From: Ailanthus altissimus
Lineage: Eukaryota > Streptophyta > Magnoliopsida > Sapindales > Simaroubaceae
DNA length: 64,000 nucleotides
Direction of reading: 5' to 3'
NCBI GenBank assembly: GCA_946807835.1
Contig: OX327704.1
Location: forward strand, 6,758,001 to 6,822,000
Within the stretch, counting starts at the first letter, position 1; every line of letters starts with the position of its first letter. The position numbers and the translations under genes are program-made. Below are positions 10,375-45,100 of the stretch, piece after piece. The notes below the pieces were generated by a model. That model saw only the letters and a list, made by a program, of their open reading frames with translations. It was not told the DNA's origin and did no database searches.

Positions 10375-12304
10375 ACTGGTATTAAAGTAATGGTTTCTTG
10401 AATATATGATTTTGGTGTTATGATTTATTTTATTTAAATCATGATTTATGGGTATGTATGTAAGAGTGGGTACTTGTTTTTTTAATTTTGTTCATATGAT
10501 GAATGACTATTTTGTGCATGGATCTTTTGGTTGTTAATTATATGGTCCTTTAAGATTAATGGTAATTTTTTTTAATTAAATCAAAATTGTGTAAACCTAT
10601 AAAGGGGTACATAATTTTTTGTAGTATATTTTTTTTACTATTTTTTTTTTTGTGGCCGTTGGAAGAGAAAGAAAAAGAAAAATGGAAGAAATGGAAGACA
10701 AAAAAAAATTTGATTAAGAAGAAGAAAAGAAACAGTGCTGTCATGATCCCTTTTGCATATATATATATATAAAGGGAAAATGAATCTTGCTATGCACAAA
10801 AGAATAAATTATTGTTCTTTGGCCATGTATTAAGGGCTAATTGGTGGGACTGGTTGTTCTTTTACGCCAATTGTTCAATTTCAAAATTTTGATCAATAAC
10901 TCAAAATGTGCAATACGGCAACTACAATGACAGAGGGCATGGTTCAAGGCAGTGGCTTATGACAGCTGCCACCATGGCAATAGCATGAAGGTTGCTGTCC
11001 TAGGTATATTAGGGCAATAACAAAGGACTCTTAATTTTGGACTTGAGAAGTTAAAATAAAATTAGATTTGATCTCTTATAGTATTTGGGCACTAAATGGA
11101 CAAAATTCATTTTAAATATATATATATATATATATATATATCTAAGAGTTGGATTATCTTGCAAAATATACAATAGGCCTAAGAAAAGTTCTTAAGCTCG
11201 TACGTATAAAATTACAAAGAAAATGGACTGAATTTTTTATGGACTTAAGAAGACCATGTGCAGCTAGGCCTGCGTACCTATACCTTTTATGTAATTTATT
11301 TTATTTTATAGTTGTAATTTAAAATCTTAAAGGATTTGGCCAAAATTATATTAAATATTAATTATATTATTAATTTATGTGATGACTTATAACATGATTA
11401 TGAATAATTACATATCATGCATTTGTACTCACCATATTATTGTAATATGACATGCATACATGCCATAATTAAAATTTAAATAATTTTTTTTATTATGACA
11501 TATTATAATAAATAAGATTAAATTAGTGGATTGATTAGTATGTTTAAAACTTGTATAATTAATCAAATAATGTGAAATTAGATTTAATAGTTAAATTAGT
11601 AATTTCACATTATTCTAAGTAACCTAAATTAAATAGTTTGATTTAGAATTGCTTAGAAAATTATTAATAAAATTATTGATTTTATTATTTATAAAAATAA
11701 TTTATTAATTCAATAATTAAAAAACTAGGTTCATCTAAATTGTTAGGCCTATTTAAAAGGAATAGTTAGACTATTAAACCTAAACCCAACAAGATTGAAC
11801 TTTATTAGGATTAATTAATTATACCTAGTAATTTGTTATATGAGATATAATAATTTGTTGAGGCTATAAAACATAAGATATTTTATAAATTATGAAAACA
11901 CATAGTTAAAACTAGTGAGTGGGAGAGGGTACATGACAATGAATCCATCGGTCTCCATTATTAGTACAACATCGTGAGATATAGGTGGCGCCTCGCGACG
12001 CTTTGATTTCGTCCTCCCTACGGAGGGTGTCCGTTTATTTCAATAATAAGGTTGACTTCCCAGAGATAGGATTAAGTGATGTATTTCATAATTGACCGAC
12101 TCTACGATGGTAATTTTTGAGTTAAGTCATCTTAATCCGAAATAATGGGTTACACTCACAAAGATATAATTAAGCAGTTAATAATATCTTGACCAAAATA
12201 AACGGTTGTTAATAGGTAAATGAAAATATGTAATATTTTAAAATTTTCCTATTAATTTGAGATAGTCTCAATTTTAATTTTAATTTAATATAACCTACCC
12301 TACG
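10375..12304 (+). other. Copia-2 untranslated leader, left part
   Basis: It begins with a decayed primer site (TGGTATTAAAGTAATGG from 10377, versus the usual TGGTATCAGAGC core). The rest is AT-rich with no coherent frame. It contains short (AT)n tracts at about 10761-10771 and 11117-11142. The leader resumes at 19044 after the nested Gypsy element and reaches the gag start at 19189, preceded by a CAG acceptor-like word. Parts of 11160-12300 may be an older insertion that I cannot delimit. Confidence 0.6.
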
Positions 12305-12309
12305 GCGGC
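12305..12309. repeat. Target-site duplication GCGGC (left)
   Basis: GCGGC at 12305-12309 recurs at 19039-19043, immediately outside the two ends of the nested Gypsy element. It is a 5-bp duplication as expected for LTR retrotransposon integration, and it proves that B inserted into Copia-2. Confidence 0.85.
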
Positions 12310-13638
12310 TAATTGGTTGTGCTTTAGTAGCTAGCGTACGCTATCGTATCAAATAATATAGGATTTTAAGTCCAAGTATCGATCCCACAGGGACTATACG
12401 ATTTAATTCTATAAATCAAGTACTAAAATTATACCTACTTAACTTTTATTCAGAAAACTAAAATCTAGAATTTATTTAACTAATCTAATTATCTCAATTA
12501 ACTAAACAAAAGCAAAGAGTAGAATTCACAAATAAAGAAATCTAGGGTTTTGACTCGTCCCCTATTATTTCATTGGACTCATTAACCACTTAGTTAATCT
12601 TTTAATACCAATTGATTGGCTGAAATACTAATCTCATCACAAGCCTCTGTCGATGGTCAAGTAACTATATTACGCATTCTAACAATCACATATATGTCTA
12701 TGGTAATCAAATCAGAATGTAATTCATTAAGATCAAGTCTAAATTATACCATACATGTCACCTAGGTATATGTCTATCCTAGATGGAACTCATAGTTGTT
12801 ATCCTATGATCATGCATTAAACTACCATAGGCTAAACACATGAATTCCTCCATCGAGTTCATTATGGTTCCTCAATAATTCAAAATATTGATCAAATATA
12901 ATGAAAGCATTAAACACAAGATAGAATGAATCAATTGAATGCATCAAGTTCATAAACTAAAAATTCACACAATCCAAATCCATACTAGGTTTACATAGTC
13001 TATCCCTAGATGAACAAATTAACTCATCACAAAATCAAAAGTATCAAACCAATTCATAAAGATCAACAAGAACAAGAACATAATGATAAAGAAAGAGAAG
13101 AAAAACTAATCAAAGTGACTCCTTGATGTGCTTCTCCCTCAATCTTGACTTAAAGCTTGAATCTTGATCTTGGTTCTTCAATCTTTGACTTTGATCTTTG
13201 ATCTTGTGTTGTGAATTCTCTCTCTAAATTTTTGCCTTTCTTTTCTCTCCTCTCTTCTTAGGGTTTTTGGCTTTCTATTTATAAATTTTTGTCTTCAAAA
13301 TACTGTTCATGAGTTACTGTAGCAAAATAATGTTCCTATGCCACTGTTCACCGCCACGAACGCCATGGAGCTGGGTTGTGGGCACCGCGGCACTTAGCTA
13401 CTGACTTGGGAGCTGCGGCGCTCAGTCGAGTGCCCAGTCCTGGTGCCCCTTTCGTATTTTGAGCGTAACTTCTTCGTTTTACGTCCGATTAGCCTCCCGT
13501 TTGTTCCTATACGTCACATTTTCCGTCTTGCATTTATTTATGATCAAAAGCCATAATTAAATAACCAAAAATTTATGATTTGGGGAAAAATATAAAAGTT
13601 GGGTTATATATCATACTAGTATTTTTACGCCACTATCA
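12310..13638 (-). repeat. 3' LTR of Gypsy family B
   Basis: This copy is about 1.33 kb and is the fuller of the two LTRs. On the minus strand it starts TGATAGTGGCG and ends ...CCAATTA; the right copy suggests the final CA became TA. It contains a GC-rich block (13350-13450) of CCGCGG-type words, several TTGATCTTGGTTCTTCAATC-like words (13160-13205) and conserved blocks shared with the family A LTR. Confidence 0.88.
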
Positions 13639-15500
13639 AATACCCCCAAACTTAAGATTTTGCTCGTAGTCGAGCAAAACAAAAAAAAATATTCACAACT
13701 TATTTATAACTCAAAAATAAAAACTAAAAATTAAAAACAAGCTCAAGTTGATTAGATGATCAATATCGTTGTCTCAAAAGCTGCGAAAAATAGCACAAGC
13801 TCTTCATAAATCAATAAATAACCTTCAACAATCCTCATACCATTAATCAAGTACTTTATTCTCCCTTATAAATGATCACTTGTGCGTGTGTGTAATAACA
13901 AGTAATTGGCTAAATAGAACATAGATTTACTCAATACTTAAGAAATACATAAATATGATATCACGGTATATTTTCAATTATAACACTACCATAAGCTTGC
14001 TTTTTATACTACTCTCCACTAATGTAGAAATACATATATCTAGGGATCTATTTAGGACTTTATTTAGCTTGTAATGTAAGGCTAAGGTAAAGGTGGGTTA
14101 TAAAAATATATATAAAGTGCAAATCACATCATTAACACTTAGACTTTACTCAGAAATCTCTTGATTCCTTCTCCTCCTTGATTATTTTAATCCTTACTCA
14201 GAAACCTCTTGATTTCTTCTCTTCCCCAAAACTTATGCTATTTCCATTTTTCTTTCAATCCATTTTACAAAGTATTTCTTCTTTTTCTAAGTTGGGGGTA
14301 TTATGCATTTAAACTTTTTTTTTATGTACCCCCAAACTCAGATTGATATGCACCTTCAAGACTTATTTCTTTTCATTGCAGTACCCTTCTTTCATACATC
14401 CACAACCTTCTTCATTTTAAGAATATTTCTAAGTAAACTCAAGATTTATAGTGCTAACGGTAGATTTTAGGATAAGTAAACTCAAAGTCTTTAGGCTTAT
14501 AATGTGGTTAAATAGAAAAAAAAAAAGGTAATTAAGCTCAAACTGGGTGATTAGGGATAAATATACATATAAGGTAGCTCGAAAAGGCTCAAACGGTCCA
14601 AAAATGGCCTAATGTCATTTCCCTAAGCATGTGAATTCTAGGATTTTGCCTCAAGTAAGTTCTAGAGTGTTGGTCTTCGAAGCTGTGGTGTACTACTTAA
14701 GCATGAATAACTATAAGCAAAAAATTCAACTAATACATGCTTATTTCAATGTGCTAAAAAATAAGTGATTAAAAATAAGCTTGAAATTAGTTCAAGATTT
14801 ATGATATAAAAATTATCTCAAGCCTCTATTATTTCCTGAAGACTTGTGAAAAGAAATTCAGCCAATATTTTATTTCTTATCATGGACTAATGATCATCAT
14901 CTCAACTAAAACTTAACAACCTAAAAAACAATATTACTCCACAAGACAACTAACCAATATAAGTAGCAAAATAGACACAAAAAATTGTGTTTTTCACCCC
15001 CAAACTTAAATTAGACATTGTCCTCCATGTCTAAAAATAAGTTTAAAAGTAAGAGAAACTCCCCTGATAACTGAAGTTGAAGTAGTGTAGCATTGTGTTC
15101 TGATGAATGTGACTGCAATTTTCTTTGCTTTCAGCGCTTGCACTTGCTTCATTGAATGCTTGAATTGCTAATTTATTCCTATAAAAAAAAAGAACCTAAC
15201 ATAACTAAAACTGAAAATAAGCTAATAAAAATAAAATTTTACTTGGGTTGCCTCCCAATAAGCGCTTGATTTAACGCCGTCAGCTTGGCGAGGCTCTTTC
15301 TACTCTTATGGAGAATCAAAGTCAATAGTGGAAGCATCTTTATATGTGAGCTTGTTAGGCTTCCTTTCTTTCAGCTTCCACATCTTCTTTATTAGATCTT
15401 GGACAGCAACTTGTTCCTCTTTCTCCTTGTGTTTCTCCGGAAAGAGTTGAATCTTAGATCAACGAAGTGTCTCTTTTGTGCTCTTCTCTTCAATCCTGTC
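13639..15500 (-). other. Non-coding 3' internal region of family B element
   Basis: There is no pol-type coding potential. The minus-strand order runs from the protease into this region and ends with a purine tract next to the 3' LTR. It carries a conserved-looking word whose minus strand reads GGGAGGCAACCC (15256-15245) beside AAGCGCTTATT. I have met this word repeatedly in plant Gypsy-type elements, but I cannot name a function. The same internal region recurs at 62454-64000. Confidence 0.7.
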
Positions 15501-15506
15501 ATAAAA

Positions 15507-17748
15507 TTACTGCTTCTTCTTCTTCTTCTTTCTTCTCTTCTTATACTTTAACGCCTTCTTTTTTATGTAAGGGTTTATTATCTCCATGTCTTTGTGTTCT
15601 TTAGTATTTATGTGGACCACATCAATGTTATAGCAGTCTTCATCTTCAGATGGCAACTTGATTTCCTTGAAGACTTTAAATGTCGCAATGTCATCTTGTA
15701 TCCTTATGGTCATCTCCCCTTTTTGAACATCTCTTTGTCGTATGTCCTATGACTAAGAAGGGTCTTCCAAGGATGATAGGGATCTCCTTGTCTTCTTCTA
15801 TGTCTAGAACAATAAAATTGGCGGGGAAGATAAATTTGTCCACCTTTACTAGCACGTCCTCAATAATTCCCTTAGGGTAGGCAAGAAAGCGATCAGCAAG
15901 TTGAAATATGATATTGATCAACTTTGCTTCTCTCAAACCTAGCTTGTTGTAGACGTAAAGGGGCATAAGATTAATGCCTGCTCCTAGATCACATAAAGCT
16001 TTACAATGATCATAATTACCAATGAAGCACGATATGGTAAATCTCTCAGGATCTTTGAGCTTATGAGGTAACTTTTTCTGAAGAATAGTGCTACACTCCT
16101 CTGTCAATGCTACGGTCTCATAATCCTCTAGTCTCATCTTTTCGGAAATGATGCTCTTCATGAACTTGACATAACTAGGCATTTGTTCAAGCGCATCTGC
16201 AAAAGGGAGATTAATATGTAGTTTCTTAAAAACATCAAGAAATTTAGAGAATTTCTTATCTAATCTCTTATTTTGTAGCCTCTATGAAAATGGTAGAGGA
16301 GGTGTGAATGACTGCAATGATTGTTTCTGCATGTGTATGCTGTCCATCTTTCTTTTCTACGCTTTTAGGATTTTCTTGTTGCAATTTTTCAGTTTCAGCA
16401 CTTGTATTGCACCTCTGTAGCCTTTGAGGGAAAAGAATAGGTGGTTTATATGCTTGCAAATTATCTTTTTGGTCAACCCTCTCCTTTTCCTTCATCTTTA
16501 GAAGTGGGGTTGGTTGTGTGATATCATGTAAGATCTTACCACTTTGTAAGTTGACGGTTTGACATTGCTCTGCAATCCCTTTCAGATTTATCTTGGTATC
16601 ACTTAGTAGAGTACCTTGAGATCTCCTATTAATTGCAACAGCAAGTTGTCCCATTTGAACCTCTAAATTCTTCAAAGATGCTGAATGATTCTGTAGGATG
16701 ACATCATTGGACTTCATATATTGCATAAATATGTCTTCTAATGTTAACTTCTTTTCTTGTGGTGGTGAAAATCCTGAGGGATTCATTGGTCTAGATGGCT
16801 CCTCTTGGTTGTAATGCCAAGAGAAGTTTGGATGATCTCTCCACCTTGGATTAAAGAAGTTAGATTATGGGTTAGGTGGTTGTCGATTAAAATTGCCCAC
16901 ATAATTTACTACTTCATATGGTTATCACCACAAAATTCGCATGTCACTTGTCAAGTTTTGACGTCATTCAATGCATCAAACTTCTTAGATAAAATATTGA
17001 TTTGAGCTATCAATGCATTGAATGCATCAATTTCATATATACCGGTAACTCTCTTGGGTGTAACTCTCTCTGCTGGCCATTGGTAACTGTTTGACGCCAT
17101 CTCTTTTAATAGATCACAAGCCTCATCTGTAGACTTATTCATTAAAGTTCCTCTAGCTGCAATATCTATAATAGTCTTCAAATGACTTACTAATCTATTA
17201 TAGAACGTTTGGACTAATAGTCATTTAGGGACTCCATGATGAGGACACTTCCTCAACATATCCTTGAAGCGCTCCCATACCTCATACAATAACTCTCTAT
17301 TAATCTGACTGAATGAGGTGATATTATTCCTCATCTTTACTATTTTTGTTGGTGAAAAGAACTTCTGTGCTAAATCTTCCCACGTCGATATGGATCCTAA
17401 TAGCAATGACATCTACCAACTCTTAACTCTGTCCCTTAAAGAGAAAAGAGATAATCTCAATCTGACGGCATCGTCGGAGACTCCGTTGTATTTGAAAGTA
17501 TCACAAATTTTTAAGAAGTTTATGATATGCATGTTAGGATCGTCATTGGGAGCTCCACTAAACTGTACAGTTTCTTTTAGCATCTAAATAATATTCAGCT
17601 TGATCGGAAAGTTATTAGCATTGATGGTTGGTCACCGAATACTAGACTGAAGACCATTTGTAGTTGGGATAACGTACTCTTTCAAAGCTCTCTGTGGTAT
17701 CATGGGCTCAAACACAAGATTATTGATATGATCATTGTTTTCCTCCAT
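15507..17748 (-). pseudogene. Family B gag-protease remnant
   Basis: On the minus strand the frame starts at ATG 17748 (MEENNDHINN). It contains a Retrotrans_gag core (VSDDAVRLRLSLFSLRDR, CPHHGVPK), the segment MNKSTDEACDLLKEMASNSY, an RNA-binding region with a run of Gln and Ser, and a retropepsin with the catalytic word DLGAGINLMP (15990-15979 encodes DLGA) and flap-side IILGRPFL. Premature stops and at least two frameshifts break it, for example between the gag core and the protease and after the protease near 15700. The protein would have packaged element RNA. Sequence resemblance to gag-protease of the element at 55475-57798 is obvious along the whole length. Confidence 0.85.
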
Positions 17749-17879
17749 GGTATGAACTATCAAAGTAAAATAAAAATAAAATCAAAGTAAAAAGAAGAAG
17801 ATAAAACAAAAATAAAAATCTGAATTAAAAGTAAGTAGCTTAGTATTAATATTAATCTAAATAATAGATAAAACTAGTC

Positions 17880-17895
17880 CTCGGCAACGGCGCCA
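17880..17895 (-). other. tRNA-Asp primer-binding site, family B
   Basis: The minus strand reads TGGCGCCGTTGCCGA, complementary to the 3' end of plant tRNA-Asp (...CGGCAACGGCGCCA). It lies just inside the 5' LTR. Athila-type Ty3/Gypsy elements use this primer. Confidence 0.8.
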
Positions 17896-17901
17896 AAAAC
17901 T

Positions 17902-19038
17902 TGATTGTGGTGGCGGGAATCCTGAGGGATTCATTGTAATATAGAATTCACAAATAAAGATAATCTAGGATTTTGACTTGTCCCCTAATATTTCATTGAA
18001 CTCATTAACCACTTAGTTAATCCCTTAATACCAATTGATTGACTTAGACACTAATCTCATCACAAGCCTCTGTCAATGGTCAAGTGACTATATTACGTAT
18101 TCTAACAATCACCTATATGTCTATAGTAGTCAAATCAGAATGTAATTCATTAAGATTAAGTCTAAATTTGACCATACATGCCACCTAGGTATATATCTAT
18201 CCTAGATGGAACTCATAATTGTTACCCTATGATTATGCATCAAACTACCCTAGGCTAAACACATGAATCCCTCCGTCGAGTTCATCATGATTCCTCAATC
18301 ATTCAAAATATTGATCAGATATAATGAAAGCATTAAACACAAGATAAAATGAATCAATTGAATGCATCAAGTTCATAAACTAAAAATTCACACAATCCAA
18401 ATCCATACTAGGTTTACATAGTCTAACCCTAGATGGACAAATTAACCCATCACAAAACCAAAAGTATCAAACCAATTCATAAAGATCAACAAGAACAAGA
18501 ACACAATGATAAAGAAAGAGAAGAAAAACTATTCAAAGTGACTCTTTGATGTGCTTCTCCCTCAATCTTGACTTGAAGCTTGAATCTTGATCTTGGTTCT
18601 TCAATCTTTGGCTTTGATATTTGATTTTGTATTGTGAATTCTCTCTCTAAATTTTTGCCTCTTTTCTCTCTTTTTCTCTCCTCCTCTTTTTCTTAAGGTT
18701 TTTGTATTCAAAATACTGTTTACGAGTTACTGCAGAAAAATACTGTTCCTATGCCAGTGTTCACCGCCATGAGCACCGCGGTGCTAAGCTACTAACCTGG
18801 GCACCGCAGCTCTTAGTCATGGGCGCTGCAGTGCCCAGCCTTGGTACCCCTTTTGTATTTTGAGCGTAACATATTCGTTTGACGTCTGATTCCCCTTCTG
18901 TTTGTTTCTATACGTCACATTTTTCGTCGTGCATCTATTTATTATCAGAATACACAATTAAATACCCAAATATTTATGCTTTGGAGCAAAAATCAAAAGT
19001 TAGATGCAAATCATACTAGTACTTTTACACCCCTATCA
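17902..19038 (-). repeat. 5' LTR of Gypsy family B, with internal deletion and patch
   Basis: It aligns to 12310-13638 but lacks about 200 bp next to the primer site (equivalent of about 12318-12516). In place of that sequence is a 31-bp word (17906-17936) that matches the element's own gag region at 16758-16788 in 28 of 31 positions. The right end CCCTATCA meets the GCGGC duplication. Confidence 0.85.
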
Positions 19039-19188
19039 GCGGCACATTAATTGTTAAATTGAACTATCGTAGATTAGTATTAATTTATATATTTAAATAA
19101 ATGTACTCATGCATCATGTTTACTATTATAAAAATCACTATGATATTTATTCAAGTATTCTTAAAATTACTTTATTTATTTCAGCATC

Positions 19189-22100
19189 ATGTCTGGAACA
19201 AACCCTATCATAGCTCTCTTAGCAAATGAAAAATTGACCGATGATAAATTTTTAAAATGGAAAAGCAATATAAATATTGTGTTGATCTACAAGGATCAAA
19301 AGTTTTTCATTATGGAGGAGTGTCCTTCAGAACCTACAGCCAATGCTCCTTGTAATATACAGGAGCAGTATGAGAAATGGATACAGGCCAATAATAAGGC
19401 TTGCTACTATATGCTTGCCAACATGAGTGATGTGCTTAGAATGAAACACTAGCACTTAGATACTGTACATGAGATATGGGATTCTCTCTAAGCGATGTTT
19501 GGCCAGCAGCCGGAATAAAGCCGTCATAAAGCTACTCGTAGCTACATGAACACTAAAATGAAGAAAGGAGTTTCGGTGCGTGAGCATGTTTTGAACATGA
19601 TCAATCTAATGCATCAGACAGAGATCCATAGAGCCACCATAGATGATAAGACCTAAGTCAGCATCATTCTGGAGTCTCTTACTCCAGCATTTTCATAGTT
19701 CAAAATAAATTATGTTATGAACAAGCTCTCATATAATATGACTCAGCTACTTAATGAACTGCAAACTTCTGATGCTATATCAGATAAGCCCAAAAAGTCT
19801 GAGGCAAATGTTGCTGAAGTTAAGCAGCCTTCCTCCAAGCAAAATAAAAAAAGGAAGAACACTGGTGGTGTTTCAAATTCTTGAAGAAAAGCCAAGAAAG
19901 CCTTTAACTACAGTAAAAGCAAGAAGAAGGACTCCAATGCAAAGAAATGAAAGTGTTTTCATTGCAAAGTCGAGGGGCATTGGAAGAGAAACAATAAAAA
20001 AATCTCTCTCTGAGATAAAAGAAAAGAGTAAAGGTAAATATGATTTACTGGTATTATAAGCCTTATTAATGGAGGATGAACTTTCTCTTTGGATAATTGA
20101 TTCAAGAGTCACTAATCATATTTATTCTTCCTTACAGATGCTTAGTTCTTCTAAAGAGTTTTCTGATAGGGACTTTACCATGCGGGTTGGCAATGAGGCA
20201 ATCGTTTCGGCTTTAACAGTGGGAGTGGCTCGATTGAATTTTAGGAATAATTTTTAATTTTAAATAATTTTTATTTTATTCCTAAATTTAGAAGGAATTT
20301 GATTTCTGTTTTTAAGTTGCATGAACAACTCTTTAATATTTCTTTTTATAATAATGAGATTATTATTGGTAGAAATAGTTTAGATATTTGTCACGCGAAA
20401 TTAGAAAATAAGCTTTGTGTTTTAAGACCCGATGAGCCATCACTGCTTAATTCTAAGCTATTTAGAGTAGAATATCTTAAATCTACTAAAAGGAAAAAGG
20501 TTTCTCTTAATGATGACACGTATCTTTGACATTTTAGGTTAGGTCATATTAATCTGGATAGAATTAACAAATTAGTAAATGATGGTCCTTTAAGAGAGCT
20601 GAACGTTGGCATTCTTCTTGTATGTGAGTCTTGTTTAGAGGATAAAATGACTAAAAGACCCTTTTTAGCTAAGGGTGAAAGAGCCAAGGAACTACTTTAG
20701 CTTGTACATACTGATGTTTGTGGTCCATTAAATGTACAAGCAAGAGGCGGTTATGAATACTTTATTACATTTATTGACGACTATTCAAGATACGCCTATG
20801 TTTACCTAATTGAAGGAAGATCTGAGACTTTTAGAAAGTTTAAAGAATTCTTAGCAAAAGCTGAAAAGCAATTAGGTAAAACACTTAAGACCCTTCGATC
20901 AGATCGAGGTGGTGAATGCCATGACATAGAGTTAAAGGATCACCTATTGGAGCATGAGATTTTATCCCAACTCACAGCACCTGGAACACCTCAACAAAAT
21001 GGTGTTACAAAAAGGAGAAACAGAACCTTATTAGATATGGTTAGGTCTATAATAAGCTACTCTTCACTGTCACCCTCATTTTGGGGTTATGCACTACAGA
21101 CCATGGTCTACATTTTGAATGTAGTACTTTTCAAATTTATCCAAAGTACATCCTTAAAGATGTGAAATTGTAGTAAACCTAGTTTTCGCCATTTTCGCAT
21201 ATAGGGGTGTCCAGCACATGTGCTGAAAGAAAAGAATGGAAAATTAGAATTGCGAATAGAAGTTTGTCGATTTGTAAGCTACTCTAAAGGTACAAAATGA
21301 GGTTTGTTTTATAGTCCTCAAGAAAAGAAAGTAATTTTATTGACAAATGCCACTTTTCTTGAGAATGATTATATATTAAACTATAAACCTCGCAGTAAGA
21401 TTGTACCACAAGAAATACTTTTTGATCAGATCAGACACTTACCGCCAATAGTTAGTGAACAACAAAGTCAGGTAACCACCAATTCTGATCAGAACACCTT
21501 GGAACCTCGATGTAATAAGAGGATAGTGAGACTATCTTTTCGTTACAGAAAGGAGGGAGAGGCATAAGTAGTTGTGTCCGACACAAGCTAAGACAATCCA
21601 TTGACATATAGACATGCAATGAAAGATTATGATAAAGACAAATGGCAATAAGCCATGAACCAAGAAATGAAGTCTGTGTACTCCAATTCAGTCTAGGAAC
21701 TTGTAGATCCACTTGAAGATGTCAAGCCTATTGGATGCAAATGGATCTTCAAGAAGAAACAAGACGTAGATGAAAAAGTAGAGACTTTCAAAGCAAGATT
21801 AGTAGCAAAGGGTTATACCCAGAAAGAGGGAGTTGACTATGAAGAGACTTTTCTCGCCAGTAGCCATGCTCAAATCCATTCGTATTCTCTTATCCATTGT
21901 TGTATGCCTCAATTATGAGATATGACAAATAGACATCAAGATAGCCTTTTTAAATGACTATCTTGAAGAGAGCATCTACATTGTGCAACCAGAGGGGTTC
22001 GTGGTAAAAGGTCAGGAGCAAAAAGTCTGTAAATTGCTTAAGTCCATTTATGAACTTAAGTAAGTTTCAAGATCTTAGAACTTAAGTTTTGATGAGACAA

Positions 22101-23170
22101 TTAAATCTTATGGTTTCAAGAAAATTATTGATGAACCTTGTGTATACAAGTACATCAAGAACAAAAATGTGGATTTTTTGGTACTTTATATGGATGACAT
22201 TCTACTTTTTGGGAATGATGTAGAAACATTATCCAACATAAAGAAGTGGTTGGCCGAGCACTTTCAAATGAAGGATTTGAGAGAGGAAAGTTATGTCATT
22301 GGGATCCAAATTATTCAGAATCGTAAGAATAGACTATTGGCACTGTCTCAGGCATCGTATATTAAAAAAGTGCTTATACGATTTTTGATGCAAAATTTCA
22401 AGAAGGGTCAATTATCGACTCAACATGGAATTGTTCTTTCTAAAGAGCAATGTCTTAAGACACCTTAGGAGAAAGAAGATATGAGACGAGTTCCCTATGC
22501 CTTAGCAATTAGCAGCCTTATGTACGCTGTGTTGTGCACGAGGCCTGACATTTGTTATACAGTGGGAATAATCGGTCGTTATCAATTCAACCCTAGATTA
22601 GCTCACTGGATTGCAGTAAAGTACGTTCTCAAGTATTTTTAAATAACGAGAAACTATATGCTTGTGTATTTAGGTGGAGACCTGAACCCCACTAGTTATA
22701 CTGATTCTGATTTTCAATCAGATAAAGATAGTCGAAAGTCAACGTCTGGGTCAGTGTTTACTCTTAGTGGCGGAGCTATAGTCTGGAGAAGTGTAAAACA
22801 ATCCAGTACTGTTGATTCAACAATGGAGGCTGAATACATAGTAGCTTCCGAAGCAGCTAAAAAGGTAGTATGGCTTAGGAAGTTCTTCATTGATCTGAAA
22901 GTTGTTCTAGATATGGCTAAACCATTAACCCTTTACTGTGACAACAGTGAGGCAGTGCAAATTCAAAGGAACCCAAAAGCCACAAGAGAGCAAAGCATAT
23001 AGAGAGAAAGTATCACTTGATCAGGGAAATCGTTCATAGAGGTGGTATAACAGTCATGAAGATAACATCTGAAAAGAATCTTGCAAACTCGTTCACCAAG
23101 ACATTACCGGCTAGGTCGTTTGAGAGTCATATAGAGGGTATGGGTTTAAGAGACACATCTCACCTGCTTT
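19189..23170 (+). pseudogene. Copia-2 gag-pol remnant
   Basis: It starts at MSGTNPIIALLANEKLTDD (19189) with a Copia gag (UBN2-type). It continues with a Lys-rich region, a protease-like LWIIDSRVTNHIYS (20090) whose usual DSGAT triad is altered, integrase (IDDYSRYAYVYL; DRGGECHD; PGTPQQNGV), RT (KARLVAKGYTQKEGVDYEETF; YMDD intact at 22187-22198), and RNase H (TDSDFQSDKDSRKSTSGSVF; YCDNSEAVQI). In-frame stops and frameshifts occur throughout (19450, 19489, 19518, 19655, 20258, 20528, 21165, 21567 and others), so it is non-functional. The product order integrase-RT-RNase H defines Ty1/Copia. Confidence 0.9.
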
Positions 23171-23186
23171 AGAATAAGTGGGAGAT

Positions 23187-24873
23187 TGTTAGAGATAATG
23201 CTCTAAAAACATGTATTTGTACTATTTTTATGAAAATAATAAAGTTGTAATTTTATGACATAAATATTATAAAATCCCTTGTTTATTTATGTAACCATAA
23301 CTTTAGTATATAATTGTTATACAAGAGGATTAAAGTTATGAATAATAAATAAAAAAATCTATAATAAATTAATTAAAGTTTGGAATCTTTAATTAAATAT
23401 TACTAGTGCGGTCCACAGACATTTAAAATATAATAAATTCATCCGGATCACTAATATAGTGATATTATGGTAGAGGCACTATATATAATATGATTATATA
23501 GGACTGGACCAGACGTAGTTTGAATTCTTATGTAAAATACCGTTGTTAATTAAGAATTTAAATAACGTCAACTGATGATCATATGCAGATTAACTTTAAT
23601 CCCGAGTGATCATAAACTCCTATTTATGTCATTATGTCATTTGAAGTACTCGTTACGGTTTGTTTAAAGAACAGGCTAAAAACTTATATTTTGGTGGCCT
23701 AGTGAGATAAACGGTTGGGAATATGATTTACAGATATGGAATCCATTCATTCCTAAAAGAAGTTAGAAAGAATGTTCTCTTAAGGGTTAATTCTAGAATT
23801 GAACAGTTAGAGCGCTGAATTTGTAATAATATTACAAATTAACTGTTCACTAGTGAATTAATGGTACTTAAGGATAAAAAATTAATTAGAGGGGTAAATG
23901 ATAATTAACCTAACTCTAATTATGAACCACTGTGGAAGGTTGAATTGCATGTTGTGATTAAATTAATAGACTGCTCTAAGTTTTCTGAGTAAATTATATC
24001 TACAATTTCAAAAGTGCAATTCTGAATTTTTAGTGGAATAACAATGGAATTAATAAATTGAATTAATTAATTAAAGTGTTTAATTAATTATTCAAAATTT
24101 ATTGGAGCTTGAAATTGTAAGCCCATAGGTCCCAAATACATCATCTTTCGTTATTACAGTGAATAATTAATAAAAAAGATTTTGTTATTACAAAAATTAT
24201 TTGTGTTTAGAAAATAGTTTTCAAATACGTATATTTTATATTTGAATAAAATTAATTAATTAAGAATTAATTAATATAAATAATATCTTATCCAAGTATA
24301 ATTAAATATTTAATTTAAGAAATTAAATAAATAAAATCTTAAGGATAATTTTTGAAATTATCATAAAGATTTTATTTTTAATTTTAGTATTTTTCTTTTA
24401 TTAAAAGACTAATAATACTCAAATATTGAATATTATACGTTAAACACAAAGAGTAAGACTTTATGTGGTTTACATGAATTAGGTCTCCTTTTAAAAGATA
24501 ATAATTTAATTAATAAATATTATTAATTAAATTATTATTTTAAAATGAGAAGACTAGTTTAAATGAAACACAATACACATATATAAAAGAAAATGCAGGA
24601 TACATATTTTTTCTTTAGAGAAGAAAAATAAATTGGAAGCTCACTGTTCATCTCACTATAGAACAAGAGGTTTTGTTTGGAATCCTTTGGTGGAAGAAAA
24701 CTCGACGTAAATTCAAGGTATGTTCTTATTAATTTTTATTTATTTTAACATTAAATTCATATATTCATAAGATCATTAGATAAAAAGCGTTTTTATCTAA
24801 TAAAAATAAAGATTAAAAAAATTTATTTTTTATTTCGCTGAGTTATAAATATCATAACAATAATTCTCCCACA
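23187..24873 (+). repeat. 3' LTR of Copia-2
   Basis: It begins TGTTAGAGAT after a purine-rich tract, ends CTCCCACA, and is followed by AATAT (24874-24878), identical to the five bases before the 5' LTR. Confidence 0.92.
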
Positions 24874-24878
24874 AATAT

Positions 24879-25296
24879 TACATATATTGTAATTATTTTA
24901 TATGCTAAATTAAAGGTAGGTTTTTTTGTTTTTTTATTTGTGATGTATTTAAATTGGAGATTTTGAGTTTTGACATTAGTCTCAAAGTGCAGTTATCATT
25001 AAACTACTCGTATAAACTCATTTATATTATTCGACATTATATTATAAAATTATTTAAGTTATAATTTTAATATCTATTTTATATATTTATTCTTTCAAAT
25101 AATAATTATTTTATATACTTATTTATTTTAATTATGTTAGTATGAATTATATAATTAGTTTTTATATATAATATTGTAATTGTTTCAAAATTTATATTTT
25201 ACTTGTAAATTTAATTTGTAGATTATAATTAAATTTTTGGATAGACATTATAAAACTAACATGTTATCTTACTGAATCCCATAATTATGTTTTTAT
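24879..25296. other. AT-rich spacer
   Basis: There is no frame or terminal repeat. It separates the Copia-2 target duplication from the foldback element. Confidence 0.5.
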
Positions 25297-25306
25297 AAAA
25301 AAAATA

Positions 25307-27646
25307 GGAAAATTTTTTAGGTTGACCATGAATTTAATATAAATTTTTTTTTCACCGAAGTCAAATATTTTAAATTTTATTAACCAAATATATGTTACGT
25401 GGACTATTTTACTCTTATTATAATTTTTTTAATTATTTAATCTTTTCTTTCTTTTTTATAAATTAATTAAGAACATAAAATTTTAAATAATTAATTTTTT
25501 AATTAATTATAAAAATATTATTTATAATAACAATAATAATTTAAAAAAACAATAATATAAAATATAAAAGAAAAAAATTGATGGGCATGCGCCCAGCAAG
25601 CAAAAGATTACTAGGCGTGCGCCAAGCTCATCGCTTGTTTTATTTATTTATTTTTAAATTTTTATTTTTACTTTATATTTAAATTAATTATTTTTTAATT
25701 AATGTATTAAAAATAAAAATAATTAATTAATTAATTAATTAAAATATTTAATTATTTTTTATTAAATTAAAAAAAAGCTTTGAGCGCATGCGTTAGGTGC
25801 GCTCCTAACGCATGCGCCAAGCAAAGCTTGGCAAAGCTAAGCTTTGCTTATTTTATTTTTAATTTATATTTAAATTAATTATTTTTTAATTAATGTATTA
25901 AAAAGGAAAAAAGAAACAATTAATTAATTATTAAAATATTTAATTTATTTTATTAAATTAAAAAAAAAAGCTTTGGTTGCCAAGCTTTGCATGTTTTATT
26001 TTAAATTTATTTTAAAATTTTTATTTTTAATTTTATTTAAATTATTATTATTTAATTAATGTATGAAAAAGAAAAAAACAATTAATTAATTTATTGAAAT
26101 ATTTAATTTATTTTATTAAATTAAAAAAAACATTGAGCGCATGTGTTAAGCGCGCCCACACATGCGCCAAGCAAAGCTTGACATTTTATTTTTTATTTTT
26201 AAAAATTTATTTTTAATTTATATTTAAATTATTATTTTTTAATTACTATATTAAAAAAGAAAAAAAATTATTTAATTAAAATATTTAATTTATTTTATTA
26301 AATTAAAAAAAAACATTGGACGTATACGTTAGGTGCGTGCCCTATGCATACGCCAAGTAAAGTTTGATATTTTATTATTTAATTTGTAACTTTTTAATTA
26401 TTTTTTTATAAATTAATTAAAATAAATAAATTATTTCAATTAATTAATTACTTTTTTTAATATATTAATTAAAATATAATAAATTTAAATAAAAATTAAA
26501 AAAAAATTTAAATTAAAAAACAAATATAAGCAAAGCTTGGCAAAAAGCCAAGGAAAGCATGCGCTCGGGGTATGTGTATTTAAATTTGTTCAAACTTTGC
26601 TTAGCGCATGTGTAGGGCACGCGCCTAACGCATGCGCCCAATGTTTTTTTTAAATTTAATAAATTAAATTAAATATTTTAATAAATTATTTATTTTTTTT
26701 AATATATTAATTAAAAATTAAAACTTTTAATATAAATTAAAAATAAAACTTTTAAAATAAAAAATATAATGCTAAGTTTTGCTTGGCACATGCGTGGGGC
26801 ATGCTCCTAACACATGCGCCTAATTTTTTTATTTAATAAATTAATTAATTGTTTTTTTCTTTTTAAATATATTAATTAAATAATAATAATTTAAATATAA
26901 ATTAAAAATAAAAATTTTAAAATAAATTTAAAATAAAACAAGCAAAGCTTGGCGCATGTGTGGGGGGCACGCCCCACGCATGCGCCCAAAGCTTTTTTTT
27001 TAATTTAATAAAATAAATTAAATATTTTAATTAATTAATTATTTCTTTTTTTACTTTTAATACATTAATTATAAAATAAAATTTTTAAAATAAAATTAAA
27101 ATAAAACAAAGCAAAGCTTAGCTTTGCCAAGCTTTATTGGGCGCATGCATTGGGTGCGCGCCTAACGCATGCGCCCAAAGTATTTTTTTTAATTTAATAA
27201 AATTAATTAAATATTTTAATTAATTTATTTTTTAATACATTAATTAAAAAATAATTAATTTAAATATAAAGTAAAAATAAATTTAAAATAACTAAATAAA
27301 ACAAGCGATGCACTTGGCACGCGCCTAGCAATCTTTTGCTTGCTGGGCGCATCTTAGGCGCGCGCCCAATAATTTTTTTTTATAATTTATATTATTATTT
27401 TTTAAAAACTATCATTGTTATTATAAATAATATTTTTTTATAATTAATTATTTAAAATTTTATGTTCTTAATTAATTTATAAAAAAGAAAAAAAATAAAA
27501 AACTAAATAACAAAAAAATTATTAAAATTATAATAAGAGTAAAATAGTCAACGTAACATATATTTACTTAATAAAATTTAAAATATTTAATTTCAATCAA
27601 AATAAAATTTTTATATTAAATTAATGATCAACCTCAAAAATTTGCC
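25307..27646. mobile_element. Giant palindromic foldback element with Mutator-like ends
   Basis: The two halves are inverted copies of each other for about 1.17 kb. The left end GGAAAATTTTTTAGGTTGAC is matched by the reverse complement of the right end, GGCAAATTTTTGAGGTTGAT. A perfect 10-bp direct duplication, eight A then TA, flanks it (25297-25306 and 27647-27656). A 9-11 bp duplication is typical of Mutator-like elements. Each half has an outer AT-rich arm of about 270 bp and then five modules of roughly 165-210 bp. Each module is a GC-rich hairpin core (GCGCATGCG words plus an AAGCAAAGCTTGG word) in a sea of AATTAATT. No transposase is encoded, so it would need one in trans. Because the duplication is A-rich, chance agreement is possible. 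Confidence 0.85.
25784..25817. repeat. Perfect 14-bp hairpin in foldback module 2
   Basis: The arms GCGCATGCGTTAGG and CCTAACGCATGCGC pair perfectly around a 6-base loop. This is the cleanest of ten related cores, near 25583, 25782, 25970, 26133, 26318, 26528, 26772, 26941, 27107 and 27301. The first five read in one orientation and the last five in the opposite one. Confidence 0.9.
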
Positions 27647-27656
27647 AAAAAAAATA

Positions 27657-36383: not shown

Positions 36384-36410
36384 TGTCTTTGAACCTGCTC
36401 TGATACCACT

Positions 36411-37317
36411 TGTCACGGGCTGGACGCTTGCCATTGACTCAAAAGACTAGCCTATTAGGTAATACTACATACTCACTCTTAAATATCCAAGATCCACTCA
36501 ATTTCTATTCGATGTGGGACGTGACATTCTCCCCAACCCAATCACGTGACGCCATCGTCACGGTGTGGCTTAAACTTAAGAATCAATTTGGCCCGTATTA
36601 CCCATCCCCCCGGGGCTAGGGAACCCATTACCCATGTGACAATCTCTATTGAGGCTCAAGACACAAGATTTTTAGGATTCATTGGGCTCATATTGCCCAT
36701 CCCCTTAGCGGCATTAGGGATCCACATCTCATGTGACAATCTCTATTGAGGTAATTTTGGGGGCCACATACTAATGAGAATTCGGGTTTGATCTAATACC
36801 ACTTGTCACAGGCTGAGCGCTTGCCATTGACCTAAAAGACTAGCCTATCTATTAGGTAATGCTGCATACCTACCTTTATATACTCAAGATCTACTCAATT
36901 TCTTTTCGATGTAAGACGTGACATTCTCCTCCACCCAATCACGTGACACCCTCGTTACGGTGTGGCCCAAACTCAATGACCAACCTGGCCCGTATTGTTC
37001 ATCTCCCCGAGGCTAGGAGGCTCACTACCTACATGGCAATCTTTATTGGGGCTCAAGACATGAAATTTTTAGTGCCCACTTAACCCGTATTACCCATTCC
37101 AATAGAGGCATGAAGGACTTACATCTCACGTAACAATCTCCATTGGATCAATTTTAGGGGCTCACATACGAATAAGAATTCGAGTCTGCTCTGATACCAC
37201 TTGTCACAAACCAGACGCTTGTCATTGACCCAAAAGACTAGCTTGTTAAATAATATTGTATACTCACCTTTATATACCCAAAATCCACCCAATATCTATT
37301 CGATGTGTAACATAACA
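36411..37317 (-). mobile_element. Tandem TRIM array (three short LTRs, two internal units)
   Basis: Three related 115-120 bp LTR-like repeats (36411-36526, 36804-36923, 37202-37317) begin TGTCAC and end (C)GTGACA or ATAACA. They alternate with two internal units of about 277 bp. On the minus strand each internal unit starts with a tRNA-Met primer site (TGGTAT[CT]AGA...) and ends with a purine-rich tract (GGAGAA, GGGGAGAA), so each unit has the signals of a complete TRIM. The minus strand of each LTR carries the ACATCGAATAG-type word common in plant TRIMs. No coding capacity. Tandem TRIMs sharing LTRs arise by LTR-LTR recombination. Confidence 0.75.
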
Positions 37318-39114: not shown

Positions 39115-42100
39115 TTATACTGGTGATGCAGAGAGTAAAAAATCTGGCTGTACTCTCTGTAGAAGTATCCCGCAAAAGGGACACAAGGGTTTTGAGAATT
39201 CTTCTTGAACAGATGATTCTGTTAAAGATTTGAGATCATCAGGAAATCTAGGCATTGTAAAGAAAGACTCTGGTGCCAGTTTGGAGGTCCATCTTTGACA
39301 ACACTTGCAAAACCATAAGGCAGTAGCAGGGCAGACCTGCATAGAAATCGCACATCTTACTAATTTGTGTTTCTGATGAAAACCATCACTACTTTCCAGA
39401 CCTCGGCAAAAAGCAATTTCTGCAGAATCAAAAGGGATTGATGCTGCACAACAGTTACACTGCTCTTCCTCTACATATTTACTGGAGTGCTTCCTGTTGT
39501 TCAAGGATGCATATATATGAGAAAAAAAAAACAAAATAATTAATTATTAAAAAAAACAACAAAGGTAATGCATGTACGGTTACAAGTAGTTCTTGATTCC
39601 TAAACCAAGAAAAAATTCCTGTAGTTAACCTTACATGCTTGGATTAGACTTTCCTGGTTGAATTAATAAAAAATCTTTCACTGTGGTTTCATGAAATGAT
39701 GTCATTTTGGTATTTTCCCTACCATTCAAGGTGATGGCTCAATTTAATGATGTAGCTCCTATTAAAATTGCTGGCCTTTTGCCATTTAGTGGTATGTGAA
39801 AGAAACAAAACCTATCCCATCACAACAAGAAACCCAAATGTTACTCATGCCCTTTTAGAAGAAATAAAATATATACCTCCTCTCCAGCTGTACTTCTGAT
39901 GCAAGGACTTTTAGTTGATCTCGTACATATTCTTGATTTTGTGCAACCCATTGCTCCATTTGAGCCAGTCCGTCAGGACACCAATACCCAGGTTGAGAAC
40001 AAGTTGAGGTCAAATGGGAGGTGAGACTTATAAAAGCAGAGAAACTGAAACCCACAAGCCGTTCACGAAGTTCTCTTTCACTGTTCAAAAGTAACTCCAA
40101 CCACATGGTAAGTTGCTCCTCTTCAGCGCCAAAAATTCCTCCTAGGTTCTGCAGTTTGCTGTTAATTTGATCAGCTTTTAGCTCTGATAGTGTGAGACAT
40201 CTACAGAGAATATTAACAAGGTGCAATCTGCGAGAACCAATCTTTGAGACACTTTTAGAGACATGTGACAGAACCTTTTTGGAAGAAAAGCCTACATGTG
40301 ATCCCGGATATAAAGATGACAGCCACTTAACCAGAGTACATTCAACATACTTTGGGATAGACCGCTTGAAGACCGATAATGCTGCTATAATATCCCAAAC
40401 AACCAGAGGCTTATTTACATCTTCATATTGTTTGAAAGACCATAGGATATTGGACTCCCAACTAGACAATTCCTTCTCAGAAAAATAAGGAAAAGATTCA
40501 AGACCATAATTCTGAATGGTGTTTGACAAAATATCCAATTGCTGCCCACCAATCCAGAAGAACTCGATAGCAGCCTTCTGAGCCCTGTGTATGTTTCCAG
40601 AGAGTACAACATTCTATAAGTGACATATGGGTAAACAAGCACCAATCAAAGTAATACTTGGCCTGTCCTCTCCCCTACCTGTCCTTTGGATGCAAACAAT
40701 TTGTTTAACAAATGAACTGAGCTGGAGCTTAAAATTATTACGCTTGTTTAGTCTTTTAGCTCAAAGTCAAATCAACTACATACTCAGCTTGTGTTTGACC
40801 AGGGAGCACAAGAACCTACATATTGCCTATTGATTTATTTAATGTATATGTAGTCTATAATATACAGTTTAGACACAACATATATGCTACAGATTTATGA
40901 TATTATTTTTTCAAAAAAAATAAATTATATATATATATAAATATAAAGAAAGATAAATTTATTACATACAGCTGAATTGACTTTAAAATCTTAAAGAGCC
41001 AATTCGAGTTAAGCTCAAATTCACTTGATATTGTTTTGAACCAAGCTTGAGTTTATTGTCAAGCTTGAAGCTGAACGCAAACTTCAACCATTTCTTTGAG
41101 CTGACTTTAAATAGCCAAGTATTCAACTTGGCTTCTTTCTAACCTATTTCATGAAATGTTATGCAAGTTGTCCCCTTTACATAATCATTTGCTGCTTTTA
41201 GTTGGCACTAAGGCTTTGTTAAGTGACAAATAGTTCTCCATTTTGCTTTTATATTCTTAGTTTCATATCTCTAATTGCTCAACTATATCCACTATTACGT
41301 GCATGCACTAGAGAGGGTAGCTCTTAAGAAGAGAGTCCATCACCTTGCCTGGTACATATGATCCAAAGCATCAAGATCCAAACTGCGTACCTGCAGGAAT
41401 CAGGCACAAAACTTTTAGTTTCAACTTACTGCATGTGAAACTACAGCTTTTCGTCATTATTGTAAAGAACTTTCTGTAGCTAGATTTTTGGAGAAAGACC
41501 ATAAAGACAGGTGCTGTATCAGCAAAACTAGTAGGTCCTAGAATCAGTGATCCTATTTTGCCTCCTCTTATCATTCACCAAATAAAATGATTCAATGATG
41601 ATTAATGAAACACATAATAATCAGTAGTTTACCTGTTTTATCATCATCCAACTAATTTAATAGATTTATATCCTTATTCAAATAGTATGCAATAAGAACA
41701 GAGTTAGACCATCGTGTTCTTGTAGGTATAATTAAAAAAAGAAAAAGAAAAAGGTATTTCATGTACTGCAAATGATAGAAAGAATAAAATTGTGCAGAAT
41801 CATGAGCTATAAATGAAAATTTATAATTTTTATAGTACTTATATAAGTCTGTTTAGATTGCTAGTGTGAAATAATTGTAGACTCTAAATTCTCAATAATG
41901 GAACATTCCTATGTGATTTGATAGATTCCAAACTTTAAGCACATATGCACATAACTAAGCTGAAGTAAAATACTTTCCAGGAAAACAAATATGTCTATAG
42001 TTGAAACTAATAGCAAACAAAAAGTGGGAGAGATACTGGGGAAGATAAAATCTCATACCATAGCAAGAACATGATTTCCAGGGGACACCACCACACCAAG

Positions 42101-45100
42101 ACAAGAGACAAATGCATCCGGAAGCTGGATAGAATGAATTTATATTTTATTTAACTAGAGTGAAATATGTTAAGAGCAAACACAGAACAGACAGGGTAGC
42201 ATCATACATCAATGGAGCTCTTCAGACCAAGCGAGTTTGGGGGAATTGGTACCTCAGAGAGGGAATTCCCATGTAAAATCCAGCTACGCACAAAATTATC
42301 CTGTGGCCAACATGAAGTAGTGAGATTCAATTATTACCTTCATTTTTGCCTTAACAATGAAGGAGAGACAGCTTGTATGTATGTATTGAAGACTGAAGTG
42401 CATAACATCTTTGACAGGACAAAAAAGAAGAAATGGAAATAGTAAAATGCATCATCATAATCATAAAGTATCTTGATTTCATATACAGATAATCTTCTCC
42501 CTTTTCCTGGCTAAGCCATGTAGGAAATAATGGTTTTAGAATTTTTAACTATTATTTTATTAAGTTAGAATTTGAGAAATGTTCAAGTCATTTAATATTC
42601 CTATAACAGTTTGTCTTTTTTGAGTAGGTTTCTTTATCTTATAGGGGAATTTCCTTCTTAGCTTTTTCTCCTATAAAGATGGGCTCAATGCTTATCTATT
42701 AGATATGCTTGAATGAATGAGAACTTAATGTTTCCTCCTCTATAAGAATTCTCACTAGATTTCTCCCATTTCTTTTCTTTTCTCTTTCTAAATTTCCCCT
42801 TACTTTTTTTTTCTAAACTTCCCTCTTGTTTATTGTTCTTCCCAGTTCCTCTCTTCTTCTATTACTTCTGCCATTTCTCCATACCTACAGAAATTCTTCA
42901 TTTTGCTATCTAAATTTCCTCCTCTTTCTGTCTACATTTCTTCCTTTGTCTCCATAGTTTCTCCCCTTTTTGTTCTCTCTATTGGATTTTCTCCTCTTCT
43001 ATTTTTCTCCTGTCTTTATCTATTATTTTGCTTGATAGTCCATCCTACACCAATAGGTTTCTATCAATTAATTGATGCATACCTGAAATTAGATAAGAAA
43101 TATGAAACATATTTGACCAATTCTAAAAATAGAGGTACAATATGGATACTTGTTAGTTCAATTGGTACATTAAACATATTTAATGAAAAACCCTTTTCAA
43201 GGAATGAAGAGCATTTTAGATTTCTAACAAAATGCTATTTTTCACTTTCAGAAGACTAAAAAGTTTGATCCAGACATAATAATTAGCATTTGGTACTAGT
43301 TAGGTCTAATTAAGTACCATTTCCTTGAGCAAGAGAAAAGGGCTCAATTTGTTGAGTACAAGTGAGTAGACTTCTTCATACAAAAATGCAGAAGATTGAA
43401 CCATATCCAAATCCCCCTTCCCAGGAACCTGTTTTTTGAGAGGACTAATAACAACTACTGGTTCTTTATATCTATTTAACCTAATTTATTTTAGTGAATT
43501 TTGAAAAGCTGGAAAAACACCTACAGCAACTACATGATTGTCAACTAATGCTTGTAACAATGTACAGCAGCTACAACCTGACTTTGCCATATTGCAGGCA
43601 TCTTGTGGTAAAACATTCATAAGCAAATTATAAAATATCTGCAGAAAATCTTCTGAAGATATTCAATCTAATCTACATGCTTATAGAGATATCATGTAAG
43701 GAGTTATAATTGGCAGAAGACATCAGATAAACAGATAAAAAGAATGCAAGTTTTGAAAGTGAGATTAACTAAGCTTATGTGGTAATCAGTCGTGGGCATA
43801 TAAAATCAGATAGAAGGCATAAATCTAAAAGTGATCATATAATATCTGTTAGACATTGAATTATAATTATCATGCTGTTCAAAGTCATAAAATTTAGTAC
43901 CTGACTGCAGCTATACAAACAACATCCACCAAAAGCCCAAGCCAAACCAGTAACCTGATAAATACTCGAGTTCTTAAATCAACATTGAGATGGAGCAGAA
44001 GATAAAATAATGTGAAGAAACTCACAACTTGGTCATGGGCATCATATGAGCCAGCTTTATCAAATTTGCTGCTAGTTATGTCACATATCCATAATTCAAA
44101 AGATCCGGATCCTTTACCAACTGCCAAGAGCATTAGGTGCGGGGAATGAACAGGGACAATAAGTGAGAGAACCGAGATTGGGACAGCATTAACAGTTATA
44201 ACCTATTAAAAAGATTTGAAAAAAAAACCCTTAAAACTTAGCATTGATTTAATTCAACAAATAATATAATTAAGTCGGTGAATGAAATGCAAATACTCCA
44301 AAGAATGAGAGCCACCTCTCTCAGTAGGGAAAATGGAACATGATAAGTTCCTGCTGACTTCAGCAACTCCTGACCACATCCAGCCCAGATCCTCACACTG
44401 AAAATGACAATAAATAAAATAGTAGAAACTAATCTTACTAAGTGATTCAAGAGATTATGTTCTGCCTTCTTCACTAATATGTAATGGAAATGGAAAGCGA
44501 ATATCTATCATCATCATCATTCATGATTTTTATTGTGTTACAACTGACATTTGTCGGAAATCCAGATTGAATCCCACCGGATTAGGGATCAAATTGTTGT
44601 AGTTTAGTTAGAAATTTGTAGAGATTTGTTAGCTCCTAAAAATCTAGTAGTTTGTTATCTATTAACTTCAGATTTGAATTTTCCAACTCTAAATATTCTC
44701 TCTCCTAGGATCCTTATCATGTAAAGTCTATATCATGATGTTATCATGATGTAATCTATTCTGTTGATAATATAACACAAAAATTGGCTACGTGGGAGAG
44801 AAAAATTGGCTATCTAACTGGTGAAACACCAACTCCAGCCAAGACAGATTTGACTTATTTGACCTGGGATGTGGAGAATTCAATGATTATGGCATGGCTT
44901 GTGAATTCTATAGAGGAGGAGATTAGTGCTAATTACATTTGTTACTCTATAGCCAATGAATTGTAGGATAATATCAATCAAATGTATTCTGATTTGGGAA
45001 ATCAATCCCAAGTATATGAACTCCAACTCAAGCTCGGTGATATTCAGCAAAGCGAGAGTGTAGTCACCAAATATTTTAACACACTCAAAGGTTTGTGGGA

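Follow-up and report, generated by a model that had tools for sequence, protein, structure and literature searches.

The locus at positions 25307–27646 of the window (the whole 64-kb stretch of Ailanthus altissimus DNA that was analysed) is a long inverted repeat with further repeats inside its arms. This raises the question of whether it is a transposon, of what type it would then be, and how its two arms came to be alike.

Ends, arms and centre of the element

The element is 2340 bp long and has a GC content of 18.2%. Both of its ends begin at the same base of the repeat, the left one with GGAAAATTTTTTAGGTTGACCAT at 25307 and the right one, as the reverse complement read inward from 27646, with GGCAAATTTTTGAGGTTGATCAT. 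Outside them, the direct repeat AAAAAAAATA lies flush with either end (25297–25306 and 27647–27656). Because its TA fixes the register, this duplication can be read as 10 bp only; lengths of 8, 9 or 11 bp are not flush. In 2 million random draws of one point from each of the two AT-rich flanks, flush 10-mers matched at a frequency of 2.85e-5. Taken alone, an A-rich duplication is a weak marker. The coordinates, ends and 10-bp direct repeat given in a preliminary description of the locus were found to be exact in the sequence. The outer parts and the centre of the element are as follows.

25297–25306, plus strand: left target-site duplication, AAAAAAAATA (sequence; flush-match frequency 2.85e-5)
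25307–25565, plus strand: left outer domain of the terminal inverted repeat, starting with GGAAAATTTTTTAGGTTGACCAT, without units (arm alignment; end pattern)
26371–26590, no strand: poorly matched centre, including the unpaired GC-rich stretch at about 26531–26590 (sequence; arm alignment)
27380–27646, minus strand: right outer domain, starting with GGCAAATTTTTGAGGTTGATCAT on the minus strand (arm alignment; end pattern)
27647–27656, plus strand: right target-site duplication, AAAAAAAATA (sequence; flush-match frequency)

When searched with up to 3 mismatches, the end pattern occurred in the window only at the element's two ends, and 100 shuffles gave no match. The 64-kb window contains no second copy of the element ends; the element is thus known from one copy, and neither an empty site nor a transposase was seen in this stretch. 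The end pattern had no match in viral or prokaryotic contig collections, nor did two core patterns in viral contigs, which has little bearing on plants.

Global alignment of the two halves gave a score of 1297.5; for dinucleotide-shuffled sequences (30 pairs) the mean was 70 and the highest score 129.5. Up to position 26370 the arms were identical at 912 of 992 aligned sites (92%), with 36 gaps. The alignment also contained 13 perfect runs of at least 20 bp (379 bp in sum, the longest of 49 bp), a count for which it extends into the centre. In each arm, five units follow an outer domain of about 260 bp that contains none. The inverted halves of the preliminary description were confirmed by the alignment, but not their length of about 1.17 kb each: the well-matched arms measure about 1.06 kb and are separated by some 220 bp (about 26371–26590) that match poorly between the halves and include one additional unpaired GC-rich stretch (about 26531–26590). 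The arms make up about 2.1 of the 2.34 kb in total. Inverted repeats carrying internal repeats thus form most of the element, which is the structure of the foldback class. The predicted RNA fold of the whole element comprised 982 pairs, 901 of which join the left and right arms, and the suggestion that an RNA would form a very long hairpin is true of the sequence.

Assignment to a transposon type

These features of the sequence give good support to a foldback transposon that duplicated 10 bp of its target. We consider that the element is most likely a non-autonomous foldback DNA transposon of a flowering plant, probably of the Mutator (MULE) type. The MULE label is the best fit, probable rather than proven, and draws on the duplication length and the long inverted repeats only. 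Target-site duplications of MULEs measure 9–11 bp, and long terminal inverted repeats are usual in this superfamily, if not universal. The one copy present here has a flush duplication of 10 bp, and its terminal inverted repeats of about 1.06 kb show the 912/992 identity given above. The element overlaps no stop-to-stop ORF of 100 codons and hence encodes no transposase, and Pfam searches with 10 of the 40 window ORFs of at least 100 codons found retroelement domains only. The Mutator-type transposase proposed earlier fits the duplication and the long inverted repeats, but neither a transposase nor a second copy was found in the window to go with it.

The element could also be a foldback transposon moved by the transposase of another superfamily, for example of the hAT or P type. 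We find this unlikely: the foldback shape does arise in several superfamilies and no transposase is linked to the element, but other plant transposon superfamilies duplicate 2, 3 or 8 bp, against a duplication that can be read here as 10 bp only. Foldback-like repeats are known with P-type (Galileo), Mutator-type and Tc1/mariner-type transposases (PMC3169594).

Still less probable, and in our opinion very unlikely, is that a small satellite-like array was duplicated in inverted orientation on the chromosome, without any transposon being involved. Such an origin would agree with the AT-rich surroundings (17.8% GC in 24001–26000), with the single copy seen in the window and with the length of the unit (about 180 bp), which is close to that of many plant satellite monomers. 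It does not account for an inverted repeat that stops at the same base on both sides, each time next to the flush 10-mer, nor for the outer 260 bp without units.

The units and the order in which they arose

The arms were cut into ten units of 164–200 bp, five per arm, measuring, from the outer to the inner one, 200, 192, 165, 180 and 180 bp on the left and 189, 189, 164, 186 and 192 bp on the right. These cuts bear out the five modules per arm and the flip of orientation at the centre that had been noted before. As cut here, L5 and R5 share 23 bp of the centre, so that pair 5 is slightly flawed. The units are listed with their folding results (z-scores, and shuffles out of 200 that folded as well).

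25566–25765, plus strand: unit L1, core 11 bp short compared with R1 (weak fold, 26/200)
25766–25957, plus strand: unit L2, core with two strong hairpins (z −7.09, 0/200); pairs with R2
25958–26122, plus strand: unit L3, core hairpin lost (28 bp; gaps at 25976–25978); pairs with R3
26123–26302, plus strand: unit L4 (z −3.99, 0/200); pairs with R4
26303–26482, plus strand: unit L5, inner end set in the centre by our cut (weak fold)
26460–26651, minus strand: unit R5, with extra central sequence (z −2.13)
26652–26837, minus strand: unit R4 (z −1.70)
26838–27001, minus strand: unit R3, strong core hairpin (z −5.60, 0/200)
27002–27190, minus strand: unit R2, strong core hairpin (z −4.55, 0/200)
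27191–27379, minus strand: unit R1 (z −1.52)

Each unit is made of a mostly AT-rich spacer and a GC-rich core. In the best-kept units the core resembles GGGCGCATGCGTTAGG...CCTAACGCATGCGCC, after which GCAAAGCTTGG or a related sequence is often found; L1 and R1 have a core that differs from that of the other units, and the core of L3 is lost. All 20 window matches to GCGCATGCG (up to 1 mismatch) fell inside the element, where 1.1 was expected. DNA folding was carried out on 11 core stretches, one from each of the ten units and one from the centre. None of the 200 shuffles folded as well as L2, L4, R3 or R2, while 6 did so for R5 and 12 to 47 for L1, L3, L5, the centre, R4 and R1 (z −0.5 to −1.7). 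The palindromic core, which had been ascribed to every module, is thus strong in 4 of the 11 stretches; in the others it is weak, has decayed or is lost. Palindromes commonly lose hairpins. L3 is missing 28 bp relative to R3 (one gap of 16 bp and one of 12 bp, at 25976–25978), which correspond to the hairpin sequence of R3, and the core of L1 lacks 11 bp compared with R1.

To establish how the two arrays relate to each other, we compared the units by local alignment scores. Reciprocal best matches were found for L1–R1 (score 250), L2–R2 (249), L3–R3 (203) and L4–R4 (216). L5 and R5 had a score of 89 and were not best matches, L5 being nearest to L2 (122) and R5 to L4 (110). The collinear pairing had the highest total among all 120 possible left–right pairings, with a mean score of 201 for same-position pairs compared with 132 for other left–right pairs; units of the same arm had mean scores of 144 (left) and 119 (right). 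A tree strongly supported pairs 1 and 2, supported pairs 3 and 5 less, and did not settle pair 4 (p-AU 0.41). A clade of the five left units was rejected by 86 log units (p-AU 1.3e-58). Pairs 1, 2 and 3 were again recovered from the spacers only (86–87% bootstrap; 9 units, R5 being left out), and a tree of the cores only (7 units, without L1, R1 and L3) had no resolved grouping. As to a duplication of two-unit blocks, units 1 and 3 grouped together (98/96) and units 2 and 4 did not, the grouping of the latter being 5.05 log units worse and not rejected (p-AU 0.094).

Because the collinear pairing came first among the 120 and a clade of left units was rejected, the array is older than the mirror-image arms, or else they have been kept equal by exchange, position by position. 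In either case the two arms did not grow separately. That each arm enlarged by its own unit duplications, in an element that is still a transposon, is scarcely credible: the units of one arm do resemble one another, and L5 and R5 each match another unit better than each other, but this has to be set against the higher scores of same-position pairs, the rank of the collinear pairing and the 86 log units mentioned above. What stands of the growth by module duplication within the arms suggested in the preliminary description is the multiplication of the units, and not growth of each arm on its own. The differences between the arms, counted per 90 sites, were not significantly uneven (chi-square p 0.16), and patchy conversion between the arms is therefore not demonstrated.

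The cores differed more between the arms (30/247 sites) than the spacers (27/496; Fisher p 0.002), and the outer domain differed at 23/249 sites. Transitions and transversions numbered 26 and 4 in the cores, 8 and 19 in the spacers and 10 and 13 in the outer domain. The transition bias of the cores over the spacers was significant (Fisher p 1.3e-5), part of this excess being due to composition, since the spacers consist almost entirely of A and T. Differing core columns comprised 7 of 44 in CpG, 19 of 99 in CHH and 0 of 2 in CHG context, and the observed/expected ratio of CpG was 1.01 in the left-arm cores and 0.55 in the window. A simple decay of the cores by CpG methylation is not supported, as there is no excess of changes at CpG and no CpG depletion in the left-arm cores. 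The cores look neither protected nor plainly CpG-decayed.

We also looked for changes that keep the hairpins. In the 7 units with both core arms (L1 and R1, with their different core, and L3, which lost it, were left out), the 5' and 3' core arms of the same unit paired at 69/84 positions, compared with a mean of 66.7 when partners were permuted, and 22% of the 5040 permutations were as good. Because the cores differ more than the spacers and pair no better with their own partner, selection on the hairpins, correction within each hairpin and protein binding by the cores are all unsupported, and the weaker conservation of the cores speaks against the last of these. The corrected divergence of 8.5% between the arms would correspond to a separation of about 3.3 million years at a rate of 1.3e-8 substitutions per site per year or 6.1 million years at 7e-9, a date that applies to the arms and not to the insertion.

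The MULE reading suggests the following mechanism. The common ends would be recognised by a mudrA-type transposase supplied from another place in the genome, for which the units may provide additional binding sites; it would excise the element and insert it with a 10-bp stagger. Within one terminal repeat, a unit of about 180 bp may have given rise to a head-to-tail array, which was then copied in inverted form to the other end, unless the arms were equalised by exchange. Since then the arms would have drifted, in the GC-rich cores chiefly through transitions, and would also have undergone small deletions, among them the loss of a hairpin.

The element preserves the build order of a foldback transposon, with a unit array common to both arms position by position, and offers a way of testing whether such arms come about and remain similar through one inverted copying or through repeated exchange. 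Were the element transcribed into a hairpin RNA, this might serve as a source for small-RNA silencing, in the way that has been suggested for Mu killer of maize (PMC3440606).

Published analogues and neighbouring sequences

The closest published analogues in plan appear to be Tetris and Galileo of Drosophila, compared here by description and not by sequence. Tetris of Drosophila virilis is, like the present element, an apparently non-autonomous foldback element whose long inverted repeats have an outer domain followed by tandem repeats (about 220 bp), and its target-site duplications are 8–9 bp in three complete copies and 9–10 bp in four rearranged ones (PMC4079207). Its unit number varies, its units have fed satellite arrays, and a role as extra transposase sites has been suggested for its ~220-bp repeats (PMC4079207). 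It differs in belonging to an insect and in that its units group by element in two of three complete copies, whereas they group here by position across the arms; the available part of that report mentions no palindromic core (PMC4079207). Should copies of the present element vary in unit number, or should its unit also form long arrays, the element would exemplify, in a plant, satellite DNA seeded by a transposon. It is unlikely, though conceivable, that foldback MULEs of this family multiply a hairpin unit of about 180 bp, equalise their arms by exchange and nurse plant satellite DNA as proposed for Tetris.

Galileo shares inverted repeats of up to about 1.2 kb and, in group F, tandem repeats of about 210 bp (PMC3573991; PMC3688188), and in its groups C and D short inverted repeats occur internally (PMC3573991). 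Footprinting placed a transposase site near its end, with further sites, identified by sequence, in the tandem repeats. It differs in belonging to the P superfamily, in having, in the available parts of these sources, at most 2 or 3 tandem units per repeat, and in the unequal unit numbers at the two ends of one copy (PMC3573991; PMC3688188). Mcmar of Meloidogyne chitwoodi, whose repeats have been described as made up of direct repeats and palindromes, is a nematode element of the Tc1/mariner type with terminal repeats of 355 bp (cited in PMC3169594). Going by the available parts of these sources, long terminal repeats with palindromes inside them have precedents, namely Galileo groups C and D and Mcmar.

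By duplication length and host, the closest elements are plant MULEs with complex inverted repeats. In MULEs with tandem long inverted repeats, the terminal repeat is tandemly duplicated at both ends, for which slippage has been proposed; the whole terminal repeat is present two or three times, whereas here internal units occur five times and the terminus is single (PMC3310237). MuTAnT of Medicago is a foldback MULE with modular inverted repeats and an autonomous mudrA partner, but it is mostly 200–300 bp long and inserts in TA microsatellites (PMC4486113). FARE of Arabidopsis, a plant foldback element with a long palindromic repeat at either end, has been classed with the MULEs (as cited in PMC4486113 and PMC3169594). 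In the available parts of the sources on the analogues compared, there is no description of five units per arm, in register and several with a hairpin of their own. Among the literature matches listed (foldback, MULE, palindrome, tandem-repeat and hairpin RNA topics), as far as their accessible text goes, none concerned a plant foldback element with palindrome-bearing units; the matches listed for five core strings in published texts, judged on the same portions, all dealt with unrelated subjects. The element looks like a transposon of a known kind whose build is unusually layered.

The window also contains retroelements. A Copia-type retrotransposon lies at 8700–24873, with LTRs at 8700–10374 and 23187–24873 and a 5-bp duplication, AATAT. 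Its LTRs are about 1.68 kb long and 91.7% identical (136 of 1642 sites differ), and gypsy-like repeats at about 12346–19038, between them, are probably nested. We considered whether the foldback element was inserted in the neighbouring Copia LTR, which would have provided an empty site in the window, and rejected this: the LTR ends at 24873 and the AATAT at 24878, 428 bp to the left of the element.

The protein encoded at 39855–40610 (minus strand) had 63 relatives, the named ones all from plants, which agrees with a plant host; the nearest named one, from Prunus avium (60%), carries PF12660. The minus-strand ORFs of 39115–49368, of which 39855–40610 was the one searched, may be exons of a single TFIIIC90-like gene. 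Between them lies a set of Copia ORFs (45607–48401), flanked by direct repeats at 44552–44785 and 48409–48629.

Both Rfam matches of the window were to snoR71 (RF00097), at 17231–17337 (plus strand) and 55994–56100 (minus strand), and they sit in similar, inverted gypsy-type regions (16558–17729 and 55590–56778; 71%). Because both matches fall in such regions, the snoR71 model may match retrotransposon sequence and not a snoRNA gene. A direct repeat was found at 36395–37307 with an offset of about 393 bp (36396–36912 compared with 36789–37306, 77%) and a third partial match. Finally, a GC-rich minisatellite of 3.5 copies of 22 bp is present at 54163–54238, in AT-rich DNA within a gypsy-like repeat region.
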